Shown: positions 5,301-53,940 of the stretch, piece by piece | Layout: every line of letters starts with the position of its first letter | Position numbering within the stretch: position 1 is the stretch's first letter | Source of the DNA: a virus | DNA length: 53,940 nt | IMG/VR virus record: IMGVR_UViG_3300001533_002608 | Span: 1 to 53,940 of that record | Strand: one strand, 5' to 3' | The notes under the pieces: model-generated | Told to the model about the DNA's origin: nothing | What the model saw: the letters and a program-made list of their open reading frames with translations, nothing else | Databases searched by the model: none | Translations under genes and position numbers: made by a program

Positions 5301-8300
5301 GCTAGATAATGTAGAAGCTAGTGTAGTATTTGAAGTTGCCTCTGCTGGAGATAGTATAACTTCAACTATATCCGAGGGCCAAGAGCAAGTAGCAGAGTTT
5401 GAGGTTGGTAGCTCTGGAGCAAGACACGCCGCGTCACTAGGCGTATATTTTGAAGAAGGCACAGAGGCTATAACTAGAACCTATACTGCAAGTGTAAATA
5501 GGCTAGCTCAGTCTATATTAGTTTTAAAGTCTGGAGAAGAAAAGCATTACTCTTATAAAAGTATAGCCAAGGTTGTAGTATCTGGCACCCCCGTGATCAG
5601 CTCTGTAGATATGGCAACCGAAATAGACCCAACAGCTATATTGATCTCTTCAGATTTTGAGTATTCATCATCTCCTGTCTATTCATATACTACATCTGGC
5701 TCAGCACAAGTTTCGGGGTCTTCTCAATTAGACTCGTTAGAAGTGTATGCAACCACTTCAGCAACAGGGATAGTAGTCAGCTATATTTCAGATCCCCTAG
5801 TAGACAGAACAATAGAATTCACGAGAGAGTACACAACAACAGCCATAACAGGCGGCCAGGTAGACGAAGCCGACTGGGTTGAAGTTATACCACTTGTGTC
5901 AGGTGGAATAACATTAAGCTATGAATCTGATCCTATTAATGATCGCACTATAATATTTGAATACACTTCTACTGGTAAGCTATTTACATTAGGTGGAACA
6001 TCAGTAGATTATGTGGATTTAATATTTGAAGTACAGATTGCTCCAATAGTATTAAGCTACGAGTCTGACCCTCTAAATGACAGAACGATAATATTTGAGT
6101 ATACTTCTATAACTGAGCCTTTAACTTTAAATAAAGTTGTACCGGAATTTAACGAAGTAAATCTAATTTTTGAAGCACAATCCATTCCAATAATATTAAG
6201 CTATGAATCTGATCCGTTAAATGATCGCACTATAATATTTGAATACACTTCTACTGGTAAGCTATTTACATTAAGTGGAACATCAGTAGATTATGTGGAT
6301 TTAATATTTGAAGTTCAGACCGTTCCAATAATATTAAGTTATGAATCTGATCCACTTAATGATAGAACTATAGAATTTGAAAGAACAGCAGTAGTAGAGC
6401 CACTAATTACAAGTGGTTTGATTTCAGAATTTGATGAAGTAAATTTAATATTTGAAGTTGACACTGAAAAGGCATTTACATTTGGTGGTGGAGATTATTA
6501 CATAGTATTTGAAAGAACAATGTCAGGTGGTATTACACTAAGCGGATCAGTCCCTGATTTTGATTTTGTTTTAATAATATTTCCTACTATAACTGAGCCA
6601 TTAGCTTTTAATGGAACAACAGACGAAAATGAAACTCACTTACCAGGAACTGTAGAAAGTGGTCTAATAGTAATAACTAAGATATTTAACGAGTATAATC
6701 CAGAATATAGTTACACACCAATCCGTAGAGACTCTCTTATGGTCATGGGCACTACAACTGCAGAGGTTACACCAAATGCTTTATTTATATATGAGCCATC
6801 TGGAAGAGCTTTCTTTAAGATAGCTAAAGCAGAAGTTTCATATAGTCAAGAATCTTATTATACAGGCTCTGGTGGTCCTTATTTTAGAAGATCTTATAAG
6901 CTAGTTGAATACTCATATTATCCAAAATATGAGTACACCGCTATAACTGGGACTGCTCTTATATTACTAGGTGGGGAGTGGTACGTTGGTATAAAAGCTA
7001 TAGAGCCCAGTGGTGGTATTATACTAAATGATGCTGGAGATATAACCTCTGATGAAATAAAATGGGATTATAAGTATAAAGCATCTGGTAAAATAATATT
7101 AACTAGAAGAGCAAATAAAGCATCTATATCTTATAATTGCTTAACCAAAACTAAAGCTTTAATACTAAGTGGAGATACAAAAGAGCCGATAATAACAAAG
7201 GATTATTATTATACAACCAGTGGAGTTATAATTCTAAGGCAAGCAAGTATTCATAGATATATTGCAAGTGGCAAAATTATAACCAGTGGAGCTTTTGAGT
7301 ATTCTAACACTTATGTATATCAATATACAACCAGTGGCCAGTTAAAATTCACAAGATTAAAAAGTGAGTATACATACTCTATAGTACTTCCGGTAATAAG
7401 CAAAGCAATAGTATTAAGTGGCGAGTCTAAAGAAGAATTTGTTTTAGAGTATACTGCAAGTGGTGGTATAAATTTTTACGACCCAGATTCTACTTTCAAG
7501 TATAGAAGTTTTGACAGATTAAGATTAATTCTGAGTGGCTCAGCCGAAATATCTGTAAATAGAGAATATATAACTAGTGGAAATATAGTACTTAAAAACT
7601 CCGCTCACTACTACTTATTAGAAGAGAATACTCATAAAGCTTCTGGCACAATATATATTGGTGGATCTTTTGAGGTAGAAGCATACGCCGACTTTGATAC
7701 ATATACCGCTCATGGATCAATCCAGACTTCTGGTATTACTCCATTCTCAGTACAGACTTTTGATATCGGCTATACTTACATAAGCACAAGCGGAATTTCT
7801 ATAAATGGAAATGCACTATACACATTTGAGCCAACTTTTGAATATGTAGCAGTATTCTTCCCAGCTGCAATAACGGTAAGTGGTTCTGCTGAAAGTTTAT
7901 CAGAAAAACTATATATAGCATCTGGTAGTATCGTAATAAGTGGAGCAGCAGATCTAACTTATAAATATGATATTACTGGTGGTCTTAATATATCTGGAAC
8001 AGCTACTACGGATATACTACCAGCATTTAGATATAAAACTAGTGGATTTATAAAAATAATTAGAATAAAGACTACTAGTGGTAAAGAAAAATCATATATA
8101 GCTATAGTATATAAGCCAATTAGACTTAAGGGAAAATCAAAATATAAAACACATTATATTTATCCTTTATATAATGCTAGTGGATATATAACGGTAAATG
8201 GAAATAGTACTTTATATGAGTATACAAGAAAATTCTCATATTCCCCAAGTGGAGCATTAAACGTATCAAGTATTTCAGATTATGAGTATGTAATCGAGAA

Positions 8301-11907: not shown

Positions 11908-12537
11908 ATGAAGTCTATTATATCTGATGATATTACTAAAGATCCTAAGCTAACAAAGAAAATGATCTGGTCAACTATTTCCAAAATGGAAAAAGAAGAT
12001 TTTAAGGATATTTTCAAGCCCTCCTTTTTAGAAAAACAATCTTTAAATGAATACATAAATGGGGATGAAAAGGTTCAAACAGTAAGTAAGCAACTGGCTC
12101 CTATGTTTGAATATAGAATCTTAGAGGCATTCTCAAGAATACTAGAAGATGCTAGAGGCTCTGGGTTTGACTTTATCTATAAAGAAACAGGAAAAAAAGT
12201 TGAACTAAAAACAAGCCAAGTCAGACAAGGAAAATCATGCTCATTTACAGGCAATAAAATATCAACTAAAAACTGTGATCATCTTCTAATAAACTATACA
12301 TTAGACTATGACAAAATAATTGAAGAAGACAATACAGGAATAATAAAAGAGCTTTACATAGGGTATATAAAAGATGTAGATGCAAATTGGTGGACGTCAG
12401 GTACTTCAAAGTTTAGCAATTTTTCTAAATTAAATGTACCTAAAGATCATATAAATAATGTTACAAGCATAATTGGAAATGCTAAAGTAGGAAGAAAATA
12501 TATAGTTTTTCACTCCAGTGAAAGAGAAGATTATTAA
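11908..12537 (+). CDS. PD-(D/E)XK-like endonuclease
   Basis: 209 aa with AGGAGG before ATG. The motif G-S-G-F-D-F-I-Y (near residue 84) followed about 13 residues later by K-V-E-L-K-T-S-Q matches the D...E-x-K active site of restriction-enzyme-like nucleases. The following strand/helix pattern (CDHLLINYTLDYD, ELYIGYIKDV) fits type II restriction-like folds. No methyltransferase is adjacent, so it is more likely a homing or host-DNA-degrading enzyme than a complete restriction system. The gene has its own promoter-like sequence (TATAAT near 11886). Confidence 0.6.
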   Translation: MKSIISDDITKDPKLTKKMIWSTISKMEKEDFKDIFKPSFLEKQSLNEYINGDEKVQTVSKQLAPMFEYRILEAFSRILEDARGSGFDFIYKETGKKVELKTSQVRQGKSCSFTGNKISTKNCDHLLINYTLDYDKIIEEDNTGIIKELYIGYIKDVDANWWTSGTSKFSNFSKLNVPKDHINNVTSIIGNAKVGRKYIVFHSSEREDY

Positions 12538-12552
12538 ATAGGAGATAATATT

Positions 12553-12966
12553 ATGGGGTTTTTAACGCCAATTTTATTTAGGAATGATTCAGCTGATATC
12601 CTTGAGCAAGAACCAGAACAGGTCGTACAAGCCATTATATCCGCAATGAATAATACAAGAGAAAGAAATAAATCATTTTCAATTCGAAGTACAAGTAAAA
12701 GAAAGTGGTATCAACTATGGAAACCTAAAAGATCTTTTGCTGGCACGGTACATGCTAATCCAATTGAGGCGTTAAAAACTAGGCATGCTGAAACTACTTC
12801 CCTTTTTTTATTTAGAGGAAATACTTGGACAGACTTAACTGAATATATTTATAATAGAGATGAAACTGATCTTGAATATATTGAGACTTCGGTTAAAATA
12901 GCACAAAAACATTTAAATGAGCTAAAAAAGATCGTAAAACTTAAAAAAGAGAAGATAGAAGATTAA
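12553..12966 (+). CDS. Hypothetical protein
   Basis: 137 aa, preceded by TAGGAG. A central basic stretch (TSKRKWYQLWKPKRSF) is followed by a C-terminal helix rich in lysine and leucine that could be a coiled coil. No known domain is recognised. It lies between the nuclease and a phage protein of unknown function in a same-strand run. Confidence 0.5.
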   Translation: MGFLTPILFRNDSADILEQEPEQVVQAIISAMNNTRERNKSFSIRSTSKRKWYQLWKPKRSFAGTVHANPIEALKTRHAETTSLFLFRGNTWTDLTEYIYNRDETDLEYIETSVKIAQKHLNELKKIVKLKKEKIED

Positions 12967-12991
12967 GCTAAATTACCAATAAGGAAATAAT

Positions 12992-13675
12992 ATGAAAACA
13001 TTAGAAAAGTTAAAAGAGGAATTAGACGACTGGGCTTTAGACTATATGCCTTGTCCGATTTACCGTATTCCTCGCAGGATAAGAGAGTTTATTTATTCAA
13101 TAAAGTATGCTTTCCAAAAAATGACTCGCAATCATCACACTTCGGACATGGAGCTATGGAATCTTCACTCACATTTAGCTAAAATTATATATCCAAAGTT
13201 TAAAGCCTTTAAAGAAATGAAGAAGCATGGTTATCCTGGTGATTTTGTAGAATATTATGAACATGACTGGAAAAGCAAAGAAGAATATGATAAAGCTTTA
13301 CAAGAAGGGAAAATCAAAGGCGGCGGCCCTGAAAAATGGGAAGAAGTACAGAATGAGATACTCTTTGCTTTTGAATATTTTCTTCACGATGAAGATGAAA
13401 AAAGTATAAAGAATTTTTATAAAAGATGGAGACTTAAGAATCCAAGAGAGGAAATAGAAGAAAATCTAAGTATTTCTTACTGGTATGATTTGCCTGATGG
13501 TGGTGGTATGATGACTGGTGAGCCTCTTTCAGAAGAGGAAATGAAAGAGAAGGGTTATATTTTTAGAAAACAAGACAGCATCTATTATAATGTACAATTA
13601 GAACATGAATATTCGAAAAGAGCTCAAAAAGGATTTGAGTTATTTGGTAAATATTTTATGAATCTTTGGGATTAA
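12992..13675 (+). CDS. Conserved-looking phage protein, function unknown
   Basis: 227 aa, rich in W, Y, E and K. The N-terminal half (YRIPRRIREFIYSIKYAFQK...WNLHSHLAKIIYPKFKAFKE) resembles phage proteins of unknown function widespread in large myoviruses, where a short amphipathic helix is followed by a W-D/N-x-x-x-L-L motif. No catalytic residues are identifiable. It overlaps nothing and ends 3 bases before the cREC gene. Confidence 0.55.
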   Translation: MKTLEKLKEELDDWALDYMPCPIYRIPRRIREFIYSIKYAFQKMTRNHHTSDMELWNLHSHLAKIIYPKFKAFKEMKKHGYPGDFVEYYEHDWKSKEEYDKALQEGKIKGGGPEKWEEVQNEILFAFEYFLHDEDEKSIKNFYKRWRLKNPREEIEENLSISYWYDLPDGGGMMTGEPLSEEEMKEKGYIFRKQDSIYYNVQLEHEYSKRAQKGFELFGKYFMNLWD

Positions 13676-13678
13676 ACT

Positions 13679-14050
13679 ATGAATAATAAATTAAAAATAT
13701 TTTTTCTGGAAGATAACATAAATAGATACGCACCGTTTTTTGAGTGGCTAGAGCAAAAAGCAATAGATCCACATGTTTTGAGTGCTAAATCATATCGTGA
13801 AGCTATAGAAATATTTAAAGATAATAAAGAATTTGATGTTATATTTTTAGACCACGATCTTGGTGGCAAAGTATTTATTGACTCTAGAAAAGAAAATACT
13901 GGCTACACAGTTGCTAAATATATTTTGAATAATAATATAAAATATGAACAATGTATTATACATTCTCAAAATCCAGCTGGTGCTAACAATATACAAAGCA
14001 TCTTAAAAGATGCCATAAAACTTCCTTTTCCTATTCTTATAAAATCATAG
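13679..14050 (+). CDS. cREC-domain protein (cyclic-phosphate-processing receiver-like)
   Basis: 123 aa. It has the receiver-like core FLEDN near the start, F-L-D-H-D-L-G-G (residues about 56-63), N-T-G-Y-T-V-A-K and H-S-Q-N-P-A-G-A-N. This set (L-D-H-D-L-G-G, T-G, H-S-x-N-P-x-G) is the signature of the cREC family, predicted by comparative genomics to act on cyclic nucleotide or RNA 2',3'-cyclic phosphate ends. The extra histidines distinguish it from ordinary CheY-like regulators. No kinase is nearby. The assignment to the family is confident; the substrate is not known. Confidence 0.75.
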   Translation: MNNKLKIFFLEDNINRYAPFFEWLEQKAIDPHVLSAKSYREAIEIFKDNKEFDVIFLDHDLGGKVFIDSRKENTGYTVAKYILNNNIKYEQCIIHSQNPAGANNIQSILKDAIKLPFPILIKS

Positions 14051-14462: not shown

Positions 14463-14512
14463 GATAAGATAATTGTGAAATTTATTTTTGCACAAAAAAC
14501 ATGTAAGATAAT
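14463..14512 (+). promoter_or_regulatory. Two promoter-like AAGATAAT motifs before TnpB-end relic 1
   Basis: AAGATAAT occurs at 14466-14473 and 14505-14512. The second lies 13 nt after TTGCAC and is part of a segment (CACAAAAAACATGTAAGATAAT, split here by position 14491-14512) found again before relic 3 on the minus strand at 53906-53927. Confidence 0.45.
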
Positions 14513-14526
14513 ATGGATTAAACATA

Positions 14527-14648
14527 TTAGGGCTGGGAGAGTCCGATGTTAAGCCTGTGGAGTCTAAAACCTCTGGTTCTACTTCGGTAGAAGTAAGTCT
14601 TGTCAATGAAGCAGGAAGATCACCCGTCTTTAGCGGGTGATTAGTTCA
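14527..14648 (+). ncRNA. TnpB 3'-end / reRNA-like relic, copy 1
   Basis: A 122-bp block starting TTAGGGCTGGGAGAGTCC and ending in the hairpin CACCCG-TCTTTAG-CGGGTG followed by TTAGTTCA. Such ends are typical of IS200/IS605-family right ends, where the 3' end of tnpB overlaps the guide RNA (reRNA). In frame it still reads as a TnpB C-terminus (G-L-G-E-S-D-V-K-P-V-E...V-N-E-A-G-R-S-P-V-F-S-G, stop). There is no tnpB upstream. Bases following 14648 would be the guide if the RNA were used. It may be a functional RNA, a MITE-like relic, or both. Confidence 0.65.
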
Positions 14649-14720
14649 CATATTTTTCTAATGGACTTATTGTAACAATATATAAATTAATGTAGCATAT
14701 TTACGTAAGAGGAGAACATA

Positions 14721-17491: not shown

Positions 17492-18064
17492 ATGAGCAAG
17501 CTGGAGAAACTATCTCTAAAGATAATACATAAAGGTACTAACTATGAGATAGTTAATCCTAATATAATAAAATTATTATGTGAATATATAAGAGGTAAAA
17601 CAGAGTTATCAGTTTTGGAACAAGAAGTAGATAAAGAAATTTTTTATCAAAGAATAATAAAATATGATATAGAATTTCCAGAAGATTTTTATCAACAAAA
17701 TAAAAAAGAAATTGATAAAGATAATTCTAAGAAAGCTATATTTATTAATGCTTTTAATATATTAGATTTTAATAAATTTAAGAGATCTTTAAAAGAAACA
17801 TATCCTGATAAATTTTATGATCCTAACTTTAGATCAAAAATATTTGAGGAGCAAAATGGTAAATGTGCTATATGCAAAACTAATTTAGATGGTAAACTAG
17901 CACATTTACATCATATAAATTATAATAAGCAAGATTGTAATAAATCTAATTTAGTTTTCTTGTGTCCAAGATGCCATGGAAAAACTAATAAAGAAAGGGA
18001 GTTTTGGCAGGGAGTTTTACAGGAGTACAAAGTAAACGATGAAATTTTTACAAGCGATACTTGA
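17492..18064 (+). CDS. HNH endonuclease with zinc cysteines
   Basis: 190 aa. The C-terminal half carries C-A-I-C (near residue 125), L-H-H-I-N-Y-N (near 140), N-K-S-N-L-V-F-L and C-P-R-C-H (near 158): an HNH fold with four structural cysteines, as in McrA-like and group II/phage HNH enzymes. The N-terminal half is helical and unrecognised. Its 3' end overlaps the start of the gene that is interrupted by TnpB-end relic 2. Likely a free-standing homing endonuclease. Confidence 0.82.
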   Translation: MSKLEKLSLKIIHKGTNYEIVNPNIIKLLCEYIRGKTELSVLEQEVDKEIFYQRIIKYDIEFPEDFYQQNKKEIDKDNSKKAIFINAFNILDFNKFKRSLKETYPDKFYDPNFRSKIFEEQNGKCAICKTNLDGKLAHLHHINYNKQDCNKSNLVFLCPRCHGKTNKEREFWQGVLQEYKVNDEIFTSDT

Positions 18065-18495
18065 AACAAGAGAAGAAAAAGAAAACGATGTTATCAAGGC
18101 AAAATTTGATAAAGAATTAGGGCTGGGAGAGTCCGAATTTAAGCCTGTGGAGATGAAGACCAATGCTTCTAAGCAATTAGAAGTAAGTCTTGTCAATGAA
18201 GCAGGAAGATCTCCCGTCTTTAGCGGGTGATTAGTTCATAGATAACTATCCATATGGCCAAGAAAGCTATACGGATGTTAATAAATATAAAGAGGCAAAT
18301 AAGATAATTAGTGACTTACAATTATCTTATGCGCGTAATGCAGGTGATCCTCAAAAAGTATTAGATGCAGCAAAAGATCTTTTAGATAAAATGGCTCATG
18401 ATTACGGGGATTACTATAAAGGAAAGACCAACAAAAAATGGAGAGATGCTATGTTGGCGTTAGACAAATTGAAGGAGATTGGAGGAAAATTATAA
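18039..18495 (+). pseudogene. Phage gene interrupted by a TnpB-end relic
   Basis: The 5' part (18039-18119) encodes 27 residues starting MKFLQAILETREEKE. A relic of 121 nt (18120-18240) follows, with its own stop at 18228-18230. The 3' part from 18241 encodes 84 residues (D-N-Y-P-Y-G-Q-E-S-Y...K-E-I-G-G-K-L) and stops at 18495. The two parts are in different frames, but removing 18120-18240 joins them in one frame of 111 codons. The gene is therefore broken by the insertion unless excised; function unknown. The stop overlaps the next ATG by one base. Confidence 0.65.
18117..18238 (+). ncRNA. TnpB 3'-end / reRNA-like relic, copy 2
   Basis: Same block as copy 1 (TTAGGGCTGGGAGAGTCC to GTTCA), diverged mainly in the middle (positions about 18135-18175), with the terminal hairpin CCCG-TCTTTAG-CGGG and the same in-frame TnpB-like ending V-N-E-A-G-R-S-P-V-F-S-G. 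It lacks the upstream promoter-like segment of copies 1 and 3 and sits inside a coding frame. As a guide RNA its guide would begin at about 18239. Confidence 0.65.
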
Positions 18496-28392: not shown

Positions 28393-28404
28393 GTAATATT
28401 ATAG

Positions 28405-28675
28405 TCAACTACCCTTCCCTAAAGGGAAGGGCTTGTAAAAGCCTAAGTTGACCAGAAGACTAACAGGAGGTTAGGTTGTTAGTAAACGATATTTTAGATG
28501 TAGAAACCCTTGAATGCCGTCCCAGTTCGAGGCTCTTTCGTGGCTCTGTAAGAAGTTCTGAGGTAAAGAACGGTCAACCACAATGTGAAGCTAAAATATC
28601 TTTTCGAGGGAAGGTCGGATTCAATTATAACTCCAATATAATTGATACGCATAACTCTAATAAGGAGGACATAAC
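28405..28675 (+). ncRNA. IscB omega RNA (HEARO-type)
   Basis: The 5' part contains the hairpin CCCTTCCC-TAAA-GGGAAGGG and GCTTGTAAAAGCC flanked by TCAACT/AGTTGA, the conserved start of omega RNAs upstream of iscB. Further hairpins follow (for example TCGAGGCTCTTTCGTGGCTC region and the AATTATA/TATAATT stem near 28625-28645). It ends at the iscB ribosome site. The guide of such RNAs is the about 16 nt directly 5' of the scaffold, here 28389-28404. A 67-codon frame runs through the RNA but is not considered a gene. Confidence 0.8.
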
Positions 28676-29899
28676 TTGAGAGTATATGTCAAAAATCTAA
28701 GGGGTGAGGCTTTAATGCCAACAACCCCACAAAAAGCAAGAACGTTGCTTAAAGCAAAAAAAGCAAAAGTTGTTTCAAGAATACCTTTTGTTATTAAACT
28801 TCTTGTGCCTACGGGAGAAACAAAACAAGAAGTAATTGCCGGAATGGATACAGGAAGTAAAGTAATAGGAACAGCTTGTATTTCAAATAATAAAGTTTTG
28901 TATCAATCGGAAACTATTATTAGAAATGATATTACAAAAAAGATGGAACGAAGAAAAATGTATCGTAGAAATAGAAGATCAAGAAAATGTAGATATAGAA
29001 AGCCAAGATTTCTTAATCGTAAAAATTCTACTAAATTAAATAGACTTGCTCCATCTATTAAAAGTAAAATCGAATCTCATTTAAGAGAAAAGAAGTTTAT
29101 TGAATCTATCTTACCTATATCTTATTGGAAGGTAGAAACAGCAAGTTTTGATATCCATAAAATATCTAATCCTGATGTTAAAAGATGGGAATACCAAAAA
29201 GGGCAACAAAAAGATTTTTATAATGTTAAGGCGTTTGTTTTAAGTCGAGATAGTTATACCTGTCAAAAATGTAAAAGTAAGAAAGGTAAACTTCATGTGC
29301 ATCATATTATTTTTAGAAGTAAAGGTGGAACAGATACCCCAGATAATCTTATTACCTTGTGTGAGGACTGCCACACTAAATTACATAAAGGTGAGTTTGA
29401 AATCAAAGGTATTAAAAGTAAAACAAAACATGCTACAGAAATGGGAATTATTAAATCACAATTAAAAAAGGTGTTTGGGGATTTTGAAGAAACATTTGGG
29501 TATGAGACAAAATATAAAAGAGAGCAAATACTACAATTGCCAAAAACACATTATAATGACGCAATTGCTATATGTTATAGTGATGGAGAATTAGCTGAAC
29601 CAATTAAAACCATATTATACAGAAAGCAAGTTAGTAAAGGCGACTACCAACAGTATAAGGGTAAAAGACCTGAAGTAAAGATACCAACTGGTAAATTATT
29701 TGGTTTTAGAAAATTTGATAAAGTAAAAACACCAGAAGGAATTGGTTTTATTAAGGGTAAGCGGAGTAGTGGATGTTTTGTAATTTCAGATATATTTGGG
29801 AATGTATTCAAAAAAAGTTATAATGCGAAAAAAGATTTAGAAAGAGTTTCAGCAAGAAAAACTATAATTATGGAGGTAGGCGTTTCCTCCCCCGCCTAA
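28676..29899 (+). CDS. iscB: IscB RNA-guided nuclease
   Basis: 407 aa from TTG, with AAGGAGG eight bases upstream. N-terminal P-L-M-P-type motif (A-L-M-P, residues 12-15); RuvC-I A-G-M-D-T-G-S-K (D58); arginine-rich bridge helix (E-R-R-K-M-Y-R-R-N-R-R-S-R-K, residues 91-104); RuvC-II W-K-V-E-T (E154); HNH with zinc cysteines C-Q-K-C...V-H-H-I (H209/H210), N224 and C-E-D-C-H (H233); RuvC-III H-Y-N-D-A (D295). All catalytic residues are present, so it looks active. IscB is the ancestor-like relative of Cas9, guided by the omega RNA encoded just upstream. Confidence 0.95.
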   Translation: MRVYVKNLRGEALMPTTPQKARTLLKAKKAKVVSRIPFVIKLLVPTGETKQEVIAGMDTGSKVIGTACISNNKVLYQSETIIRNDITKKMERRKMYRRNRRSRKCRYRKPRFLNRKNSTKLNRLAPSIKSKIESHLREKKFIESILPISYWKVETASFDIHKISNPDVKRWEYQKGQQKDFYNVKAFVLSRDSYTCQKCKSKKGKLHVHHIIFRSKGGTDTPDNLITLCEDCHTKLHKGEFEIKGIKSKTKHATEMGIIKSQLKKVFGDFEETFGYETKYKREQILQLPKTHYNDAIAICYSDGELAEPIKTILYRKQVSKGDYQQYKGKRPEVKIPTGKLFGFRKFDKVKTPEGIGFIKGKRSSGCFVISDIFGNVFKKSYNAKKDLERVSARKTIIMEVGVSSPA

Positions 29900-39949: not shown

Positions 39950-40238
39950 AGAAGATTTAATTAGAATATATGAAGTCTATGGAATTGCTAGACATGAATA
40001 TGATGATTATGATAGAGCTTTAAATATGGCTCGTAAACATGATAGTAAAGTTTTAGATCTACAGAGAAAAATAGAAAGGGAAGAGCAAATGGCACAGAGA
40101 GATCAACAAGCAGGTAATGAAGACTCTGCGGCCAGAAGACAACAAAATATAGCACGTCTTAAAACTCAGCAAGAAAGAGCTAGGAGACAAAAGGATAGTG
40201 CTCAAAATAAGGCTGAAAAAATAGATAATCCAAAATAA
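39933..40238 (+). CDS. Coiled-coil hypothetical protein
   Basis: 101 aa; from residue 30 onward a long R/Q/K/E-rich helix (REEQMAQRDQQAGNEDSAARR) that should form a coiled coil. It ends one base before the large terminase gene, so the two are translationally coupled. Possibly a packaging accessory. Confidence 0.5.
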   Translation: MMISNKEDLIRIYEVYGIARHEYDDYDRALNMARKHDSKVLDLQRKIEREEQMAQRDQQAGNEDSAARRQQNIARLKTQQERARRQKDSAQNKAEKIDNPK

Positions 40239-49496: not shown

Positions 49497-51408
49497 ATGC
49501 TTTTTGATTATAATAAATTGCAAAAAGAACAAAAAGGCCAGATTCTTGGTAAGTGGAAACCATTCCTTAAAGGAATCAATGATGACCACTTGAAAGAAAG
49601 TACGGCTATGTTGCTTGAGAACCAAGCACAATATCTCTTAGAAGAACCACAGACCCAAGGTGGGGATGTAGTTGGTATACAGAAAATTTTGCTACCGATC
49701 GTAAGAAGGGTTTTCCCGAACCTCAATGGGGTCCTCTTAACGTAAGTTAGGAGTAAACTTTCGGTGAATTGCTGGGAAGCTTTCAAAAAGAAATGTTAAA
49801 TACATTTCAGAGCTAATCAGCAGCCAAGATTGCCAAAGTTATATAAATGTAGGCAATAAGGTTCAGAGACTAGATGGTGAGGATATAACGACCAATAATC
49901 CATCCACGAGTGCCGAACATCCTATCTATTAGGATGAAGATATAGTCCGACCTTACGGGATGATAAACCGTAAGAACTAAGAGATAAAGAGCTCTTAGGA
50001 TAACATAAGCGTTGCGAACAACCTAGTTTCAGTTCAGCCGCTTGCTGGACCGACTGGAGTTATTTTCTATCTAAAATACCAATTTGCTTCTTCGAAATCT
50101 GAAACCGCTGCTGGTACCGAGTACAGTATGTATTCAGAAAATCCAAGTGATGAACTTGCGAACCAGGGTTACAACCCTTACTACTCTAGCGATGATGTTA
50201 GAGAAACTGATATTACCGTTAACAACGGTGGTGGTAGCTCCGCATCTAGCTTTACTTATAATATTGATACAGACTGGGCAGATGGAATTAACGGCTCCAA
50301 CTGGACAGATTCAACTAACCCATTACTTAAGAGAGTAAGATTGAGATTTAAGGCTTACGATGGATCTGGAAATAGCTCATCTTTCTTAATTCAATATGAT
50401 GGCAGATCTGGTAAGAATGCATGGCAGATCAAAGAAACTGACAGAAGCGGTTCTGGTGTTCCATTATTTGGCGATGCAGCAGGAGCTGTATTTGGCGATT
50501 TAAGTGCAGGCGATGCTGGCTATACATCTAAAGATGGAGTTCTATCAACTGCTAGCGTAAGTTTTGATGATAGTTCAAAAGAAATCACATTTACTCCTAC
50601 CGATGCGGACAGTGCTCTTGGTACTGGGCCAACAGTAGAAGGAATGGAAGCATTCTATACTTACAAACAAGAAGGAACTGAAAACATTCCTGATATGTCA
50701 ATCTCTATCAGCCAGTATCCAATAACAGTTAAGAGCAGAAAGCTCAAAGCTACCTGGACAAACGAGGCTGAACAAGACCTCAAAGCTTATCACGGCTTAA
50801 ATGCTGACGCTGAGCTAACAGCACTTGTTTCTAATGAAATGATTGCTGAAATCGACAGGGAAATCGTAAGGACAGTTATGGACATAGTTCCGATGACTTC
50901 TTTTAGATATGTTGATTGGGGAGCTGATACTACTAACAATACTTCAGGAAACTACTTAGATAGACATAGACACCTAACACAAACCTTTGCTGAGCTAAGC
51001 AATGAAATCTATAGAAAATCTAAGATCGGTCCAGCTAACTGGATCATTACTTCACCTAAGCTCGCATCCTATCTAGAAACTCTAGAGGGATTCGTTGCTG
51101 CACCGGCAGCTACTCAAGGTGGATTAGGAATCGTTAAAGCTGGTGATTTCCGTGGAAATTACACAGTTTATAAAGATCCTCTTTTCCCACCAAATAAGGC
51201 TGTTATGGGTCACAAATCACCTGCATCTCCTTTCGGAGCTGGAGTGGTTTACGCACCTTTCGTAACTCAGGTAACACCTACCTTGTACGGTCCTAACGAC
51301 TTTACACCTAGAAAGGGATTCCTCGCTAGATATGGTCTTGTGCAGGTCCCACTCGGGGATTTACTCTATGGTATGGTAAGCGTATCTGATTTACCAGGTT
51401 CTGAATAA
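49497..51408 (+). CDS. gp23: Major capsid protein (gp23-like), two exons
   Basis: Exon 1 is 49497-49723 and exon 2 is 50010-51408; joined they give 541 codons. The junction restores F-P-N-L-V-A-N-N-L-V-S-V-Q-P, matching the R-x-x-P-N-L-x-x-x-x-x-x-V-Q-P region of T4 gp23. The N-terminus N-K-L...L-G-K-W-K-P-F-L is the gp23 leader, with a likely protease site after L-L-E (residue 49). Later T-W-T-N-E-A-E-Q-D-L-K-A, F-R-Y-V-D-W and P-N-K-A-V-M-G-H-K fit the family. Without splicing, translation would end at a stop at 49743-49745. Confidence 0.93.
49724..50009 (+). other. Group I intron in the major capsid gene (IA-type, no ORF)
   Basis: 286 nt. Exon 1 ends in T (49723) and the intron ends in G (50009), as in group I introns. 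The conserved elements appear in order: P-like AATTGCTGGGAAGC (about 49767-49780), Q-like AATCAGCAGCCAAG (about 49815-49828), R-like GTTCAGAGACTAGATGG (49861-49877) and S-like AAGATATAGTCC (49937-49948), the set seen in the T4 td/nrdB/nrdD introns. GGGGT near the start can pair with ACCT of the exon end (P1). No homing endonuclease is encoded inside. Confidence 0.9.
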
Positions 51409-53708: not shown

Positions 53709-53753
53709 TAAAAATCCTCCAAAAATAAGATTTAGATTCTTATCTTTGCTAAG

Positions 53754-53889
53754 TGAACTAATCACCCGCTAAAGACGGGCCGCTAAAGACGGGCGATCTT
53801 CCTGCTTCATTGTCCAAACTTGCTTCTAATGAATTAGAACCAGAGGTTTTAGACTCCACAGGCTTAACATCGGACTCTCCCAGCCCTAA
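53754..53889 (-). ncRNA. TnpB 3'-end / reRNA-like relic, copy 3
   Basis: Read on the minus strand: TTAGGGCTGGGAGAGTCC to GTGATTAGTTCA. It is nearly identical to copy 1 for the first about 65 bases. Near its end the 14-base unit CCCGTCTTTAGCGG is tandemly repeated, extending the TnpB-like frame (R-S-P-V-F-S-G-P-S-L-A-G-D, stop). Its guide would begin near 53753 on the minus strand. No tnpB is present upstream within the window. Confidence 0.65.
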
Positions 53890-53905
53890 TTCTCTTAATC
53901 CATAT

Positions 53906-53934
53906 ATTATCTTACATGTTTTTTGTGAAAAAAT
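53906..53934 (-). promoter_or_regulatory. Promoter-like segment before relic 3
   Basis: On the minus strand CACAAAAAACATGTAAGAT leads into AAT, with AAGATAAT at 53906-53913. The same segment precedes relic 1 at 14491-14512. Confidence 0.4.
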
Positions 53935-53940
53935 TAAAAA

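Follow-up and report, generated by a model that had tools for sequence, protein, structure and literature searches.

In nature TnpB is thought to serve to retain and drive its own element. In IS200/IS605 elements the scaffold of the TnpB omega-RNA (or reRNA) overlaps the 3' end of tnpB and ends with the right-end (RE) hairpin, and the DNA flanking the element is the guide. For TnpB-bearing insertion sequences in plasmids it is known that element-free copies are cut and the element is favored (PMC11870625). The family also includes PATE or MITE elements without tnpA and tnpB, which can be mobilized in trans and consist of a left-end (LE) hairpin, a tnpB tail and an RE with a common loop motif. 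The PATE-like element of Halanaerobium hydrogeniformans is 271 nt long, with a 28-nt LE, the last 58 nt of tnpB and a 160-nt RE (PMC7290912). RAGATH-18 (RF03064) is the core of IS607 TnpB guide RNAs or reRNAs (PMC11061315).

The cassettes reported here have the PATE anatomy, with the LE hairpin seen at the c3 site, but reside in phage genomes and keep the full structured scaffold (122 nt in the window, 97 nt in Thermus phages); moreover, the Thermus phage copies are fused to a putative promoter and carry a guide that matches the empty site of a sibling phage. Unlike other IS200/IS605 omega-RNA loci, they have no tnpB in cis. The predicted logic is that of the plasmid gene drive, in which cutting of element-free copies favors element-bearing ones, but that was shown for TnpB-bearing elements, whereas here the nuclease would act in trans and in phages. 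We consider the cassettes to be non-autonomous PATE-like IS200/IS605 elements that retain a usable guide RNA and may home via TnpB supplied in trans (probability about 0.57). This reading builds on what sequence comparison has established: the make-up of the elements and the structure of their RNA, the elements from which they derive, and the precision of insertion together with the empty sites in relatives.

Scaffold copies in a T4-like phage

The window, by which we mean the whole stretch of DNA analyzed, is a 53,940-bp IMG/VR record, a fragment of a T4-like phage encoding Gp23 capsid, terminase and portal proteins. A group I intron (49703-49974, +; E 4e-20) closely precedes the Gp23 capsid gene (50128), and a 2088-aa ORF, possibly that of a tail or fiber protein, contains tandem-like internal repeats at 5907-6381 with copies offset by ~140-280 nt. 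An earlier note on this DNA had located three related blocks, and its coordinates were correct: the 122-nt blocks lie at 14527-14648 (+, c1), 18117-18238 (+, c2) and 53889-53754 (-, c3), with pairwise identities of 106/122, 114/122 and 105/122 over ungapped columns (86-93%). The alignments cover 160 nt at 90.6% identity for c1 and c3 (E 7e-54), 130 nt at 86.2% for c1 and c2 (E 3e-33) and 118 nt at 84.7% for c2 and c3. A search of the window against itself gave no other copies.

The exact block was found on just one other IMG/VR contig, 3300001533_002715 (25.7 kb), referred to below as the companion contig. Its start (locus L005, positions 1-243) is the c3 site with identical flanks and leader and extends beyond the right end of the window. 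A fourth copy, c4, is at its other end (locus L006), where the contig ends inside c4, and thus both contigs break at the block repeat. A covariance model of the block (R1, scored in bits) gave no further convincing copy in either contig. The features are as follows.

14481-14526, + strand: leader of c1, common to c3 (GTAAGATAATA..ATGG), what remains of the 5' leader and start codon of tnpB, joined to the scaffold
14527-14648, + strand: cassette c1, omega-RNA scaffold with RE hairpin (14619-14641) and TTAGTTCA; R1 143.8 bits
14649, + strand: terminal C of TTCAC in c1
14650-14669, + strand: potential guide of c1, ATATTTTTCTAATGGACTTA, insertion flank
18039-18495, + strand: gene interrupted by c2, MKFLQAILETREEKENDVIKAKFDKEL / (V)DNYPYGQESY...KEIGGKL, both parts open
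18117-18238, + strand: cassette c2, scaffold and RE only, 5'-truncated, within the ORF starting at 18039; R1 140.9 bits
18239-18258, + strand: potential guide of c2, insertion flank
53733-53752, - strand: potential guide of c3, TTAGCAAAGATAAGAATCTA, identical in L005
53753, - strand: terminal C of c3
53754-53889, - strand: cassette c3, scaffold and RE, the terminal hairpin of which contains a 14-bp duplication; R1 137.1 bits
53890-53938, - strand: leader of c3, a tnpB leader remnant
L005 283-329: LE hairpin of the c3-site element, beyond the window end

All copies have the hairpin with the TCTTTAG loop and the TTAGTTCA end. Conservation ends with the C of TTCAC in c1, c3 and c4, whereas c2 has TTCAT. 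The terminal hairpin of c3 is altered by the 14-bp tandem duplication (53754-53797), which is missing at the same site in L005; as both contigs break near the block repeat, the duplication may be real or an assembly effect. Copies c2 and c4 are 98.9% identical but have different flanks, whereas c3 and L005 have common flanks and differ almost only within one 35-nt tract. Copy c1 is chimeric, with a c3-like left half and a c2-like right half. The reading frames of the two gene parts on either side of c2 would allow them to be joined once the cassette is taken out, and no intact homologue or empty allele of this gene was found in IMG/VR. An HNH/endonuclease VII-like ORF (17492-18064, +; sub-threshold Pfam match) ends inside the start of the interrupted gene, and a homing endonuclease may possibly lie next to the c2 insertion.

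The open frame of the block in c1, LGLGESDVKPVESKTSG...NEAGRSPVFSG, reads as a TnpB C-terminus and has close variants in the other copies; the C-terminal end of a Natronosalvus TnpB is LGLGESESTPAETATAV.. In blastn the block matched annotated tnpB 3' ends of Helicobacter and haloarchaea, and the Helicobacter tnpB 3' end has the hairpin CACCCG-TCTTTAG-CGGGTG in common with it. R1 also matched tnpB 3' ends at six further loci (L007, L008, L012, L016, L053 and L085). In every copy a TnpB omega-RNA scaffold is combined with a right end of the IS200/IS605 type, and the earlier assignment of hairpin and end to IS605 right ends and TnpB 3' ends holds for all copies. The note had also called for a search for a TnpB with a matching 3' end; near-identical scaffolds lie beside TnpBs in other phages. 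In a Helicobacter felis prophage (L012, BK070119) intact TnpB copies are accompanied by closely related scaffolds.

RNAalifold predicted several scaffold helices plus the terminal hairpin. One structure fits 21 related scaffolds with standard pairs in 96% of pair cells and changes on both sides in 24 of the 36 pairs, values reached by none of 500 shuffles and compared with 35-46% pairing in slid controls; these statistics lean toward the structure because the alignment was fitted to it, although the margin is large nonetheless. Conservation of the structure by compensatory change bears out the view of the blocks as TnpB-type guide-RNA scaffolds without a neighboring tnpB. All or nearly all pairs are intact in c2, c3 and c4 (36/36 in c3), whereas c1 has three of 36 pairs broken, all in the inner stem, because a c3-like left half is combined with a c2-like right half. 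The positions at which the window copies differ are concentrated away from the core of the scaffold (p 2e-5), partly owing to exchange between copies, as seen in the chimeric c1 and in the single tract that distinguishes c3 from L005.

The cassettes have a core helix, CCUGUGGAG...AUGAAGCAGGAA, like that of RAGATH-18. Membership in this IS607 family was rejected: the scores were 30.9 bits (c3, E 2.8e-4) and 23.4 bits against a gathering cut-off of 44.9, the cognate transposase is Y1 and not an IS607 serine recombinase, and the ends are hairpins of the IS605 type. Rfam matches of c2 to TUSC7 and PYLIS_4 were attributed to chance.

The strongest rival explanation is that the copies are inert relics, ordinary PATE-type derivatives that arose from IS605 elements by deletion and were then transposed by TnpA or copied through recombination, with a functionless RNA whose scaffold persists merely through overlap with the right end or because the deletion was recent. 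We consider this unlikely on balance. The 5' truncation of c1 and c2, the three broken pairs of c1 and the interruption of a gene by c2 are all in its favor, as is the Halanaerobium PATE-like element, for which no function was proposed when it was described (PMC7290912). The compensatory changes may also have arisen before tnpB was lost, which suits relics too. However, the terminal hairpin region suffices as a right end for TnpA, yet c2, c3, c4 and most Thermus-type copies retain a further ~85 nt on its upstream side with the structure intact.

Transposon ends and parent elements

The earlier note had named a MITE-like relic as its alternative, and structurally this was right. On the companion contig the c3-site element is complete, with LE hairpin, tnpB leader, scaffold and right end within ~266 nt (L005 70-335); the LE hairpin lies upstream of the leader and has the same TCTTTAG loop as the RE hairpin. 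Given both ends and a tnpB leader matching those of relatives, it is an internally deleted IS605-type element. The LE hairpin is absent at c1, where none lies upstream of the leader, and at c2; at c4 this region is cut off by the contig end. Copy c1 therefore consists of leader, scaffold and RE and copy c2 of scaffold and RE only, and without a left end neither can move by the normal TnpA route.

A scan with the left-end pattern gave two further viral contigs whose left ends are homologous to that of L005, with compensated stems. The first (G005, 3300014208_000032, 160 kb) carries an LE-tnpB-scaffold-RE element with a scaffold scoring 126.5 bits versus 144 for the window copies, and its terminase is 35% identical to that of the window. 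The second (L091, 3300033562_002835) has the order LE-tnpA-tnpB, with divergent genes for a Y1 TnpA (PF01797, E 4e-35) and a TnpB (PF07282, E 1e-20), and a scaffold match extends into the 3' end of its tnpB. Between G005 and L091 the TnpBs are 77% identical. TTTAT precedes all three left ends (L005, G005 and L091), and on the basis of just these three left ends TTTAT appears to be the target of the window family; no empty site was seen for this family.

The upstream segment of 46-49 nt that c1 and c3 have in common (14481-14526; 53890-53938) contains AAGATAAT, as the earlier note had said, but its interpretation as a promoter was not supported by comparison with the relatives. In the two elements of G005 the sequence up to and including the tnpB start codon matches the leader of c1, c3 and L005, so that AAGATAAT is part of a tnpB 5' leader. 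With 25 occurrences in the window against 22.7 expected, it shows no enrichment of the kind that a general phage promoter would, and no sigma-70-like promoter was found at c1 or L005. The junction of leader and scaffold falls within TATGG.TTAA. As tnpB has this motif at its start and again at its end, the gene may well have been lost through a short-repeat deletion.

Stand-alone copies in other phages

Searches with c1 and the 37-aa tail gave no related phage cassettes, whereas blastn with c2 gave matches in intergenic DNA of Thermus phages. In phage YS40_Isch a stand-alone copy (40099-40195) occurs separately from an intact tnpA-tnpB element (12276-13860). Phage TMA has only a stand-alone copy, a 97-nt scaffold (84627-84723) within a 198-nt element, and its single above-threshold TnpB (112845) has no matching scaffold nearby; TMA is without a cognate tnpB for this element. 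A wider scan gave stand-alone copies in three more genomes (G002, G004 and G006) and a truncated copy in G003. The recurrence in unrelated phages (TMA, YS40_Isch, G002, G004 and G006) strengthens the case for scaffolds that exist apart from tnpB.

The TMA element retains the promoter region of the intact element, with a sigma-70-like site, TTGAAA-16-TATAAT (11/12 consensus), ~7 nt before the scaffold, and the deletion thus put the guide RNA directly behind a promoter-like site. Retention of promoter and scaffold in the divergent copies of TMA, G002 and G006 argues against inert relics, as does a copy in G006 (101643) that has lost the LE hairpin yet keeps both. Among the four orphan scaffolds of G006 one (L089) is decayed, which inert relics would explain. 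Two of the four, L088 (822-952) and L089 (813-930), are of a different sequence type with no adjacent tnpB, and L088 has a TATAAT-like box.

Insertion of the Thermus-type elements is precise. The empty TMA site is present in both phiYS40 and YS40_Isch; it reads TACTATTTTAA / TCAGAATGTTTTAGCAATAA in phiYS40 and TACTATTTTAA / CTTATG..CAGTTCAC / TCAGAATGTTTTAGCAATAA in TMA. The flank after the element is insertion-site DNA, and hence the TMA guide TCAGAATGTTTTAGCAATAA matches the empty site of phiYS40 in 20/20 nt, next to TTTAA. TTTAA precedes all five complete Thermus-type copies, and together with the phiYS40 site this gives a fixed short target 5' of the insertion and no target duplication. 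In G004 removal of TTTAA|..TTCAC| (204 nt) restores the reading frame of a gene.

Could the scaffolds be decoys that soak up the TnpB of a host or rival? Solitary CRISPR repeats act as RNA anti-CRISPRs, and decoy scaffolds would be comparable. Several stand-alone scaffold copies without a nuclease and the TMA promoter fusion would suit a decoy, but a decoy needs neither transposon ends nor precise insertion, and TnpB is not known to act in defense against these phages. We regard this explanation as very improbable.

Several other matches were set aside. A match in a Synechococcus phage lies inside a coding gene and was attributed to chance, as was a 19-nt match in a Pseudomonas phage (E 4). 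Matches in Lak phages were weak (E about 1e-3 to 0.04), and those at 231900, 325610 and 326709 were not counted as stand-alone because tnpB domains lie directly beside them. The Prevotella phages Lak-B1 and Lak-B2 (MK250020, MK250021) have several tnpB zinc-ribbon regions with weak scaffold matches nearby and in-frame TAG codons that probably reflect TAG recoding.

Guides and a possible supply of TnpB in trans

The guide of each copy is whatever adjoins the insertion, as in any IS605 element. The earlier note had the guides begin directly after the 122-nt block; they start one base later, as the C of TTCAC is still conserved. Its proposed search for targets, carried out in the window and companion contig, gave no second target for the c1-c3 guides at two or fewer mismatches, the insertion sites themselves apart. 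The note had proposed independent guide-RNA genes serving a TnpB elsewhere. Scaffolds without tnpB, and their recurrence, stand; a purpose-built origin and chosen guides are not supported, and the broken inner stem of c1 also speaks against the proposal.

Domesticated guides selected for their targets, be these rival phages, host genes or regulation, are a far-fetched explanation, only marginally ahead of decoys. The flank does differ for each copy, and c1 and c3 sit just 5' of same-strand genes. Nevertheless, insertion flanks account for the guides, the flank in the Thermus phages being insertion-site DNA, and the c3-site element carries both transposon ends. The absence of a second target in either contig and the disruption of a gene by c2 also argue against selected guides.

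Returning to PATE-like elements with a usable guide RNA, we propose four steps. Comparison with the relatives shows that tnpB (or tnpA-tnpB) was deleted from an IS605-type element in or near a phage, leaving the ends and the guide RNA; at the c3 site the internal deletion spared the LE hairpin and tnpB leader besides scaffold and right end. The shortened element would then be moved by TnpA in trans, as suggested by its ends and by the near-identity of c2 and c4 despite different flanks. The element RNA would take the new flank as its guide, a relation seen at the sequence level in TMA and G004. Finally, the transcribed RNA would be loaded into the TnpB of an intact relative residing in the phage itself, in a phage that infects the same cell or in the host. 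Cutting of element-free copies of the site would then lead to homing, with retention of the element and its spread by recombination. For the window cassettes the last three steps are proposed by analogy.

Some observations stand against this proposal. We could link neither TnpB nor TnpA to the window phage, the left end is missing from c1 and c2, the inner stem of c1 is broken and no sigma-70-like promoter was found at c1 or L005. Neither PF07282 (TnpB) nor PF01797 (TnpA) was found in the window or companion contig, both of which are fragments; the earlier description of a phage without tnpB holds for these contigs but, the window being a 53.9-kb fragment, does not extend to the whole genome. 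Exact scaffold patterns had no match in 84,980 bacterial and archaeal species, a scan that near variants could escape, and thus no host is suggested.

At 28404-29899 (+) the window also encodes an IscB-type protein of 407 aa (RRXRR + HNH) with a HEARO omega-RNA (E 1e-19) in front of it, and by these matches the phage carries a complete OMEGA nuclease and guide. IscB belongs to the OMEGA family as TnpB does, but its scaffold and nuclease are unrelated and it does not explain the cassettes.

Apparently new are the Thermus-type promoter fusion, the match to the empty site of a sibling and the fact that these elements recur across unrelated phages while keeping their structured guide RNA intact; the open-licence literature, with incomplete coverage, gave no description of nuclease-less guide-RNA elements of this kind. 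Tentatively, and with less assurance than the reading above, the elements may be double parasites of phages, ~200-270 nt in size, consisting of IS605 ends and a guide-RNA gene that is apparently promoter-driven in the Thermus-type copies. They would borrow TnpA to move and TnpB to home, would in this way spread through phage populations as selfish elements and could persist after loss of the nuclease. TMA, a complete phage with the element and no cognate nuclease, and phiYS40, its sibling with the exact empty target, can both be grown on laboratory strains of Thermus and make the retention of working guides by nuclease-less elements directly testable. The elements are a natural case of guide RNA and nuclease split between genomes, a step often assumed in the passage from TnpB to CRISPR-Cas12. 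If nuclease-less elements keep working guides, then the guide RNA rather than the nuclease would be the minimal unit of RNA-guided selfishness, and guide-RNA-only elements may spread by borrowing the nucleases of other elements.
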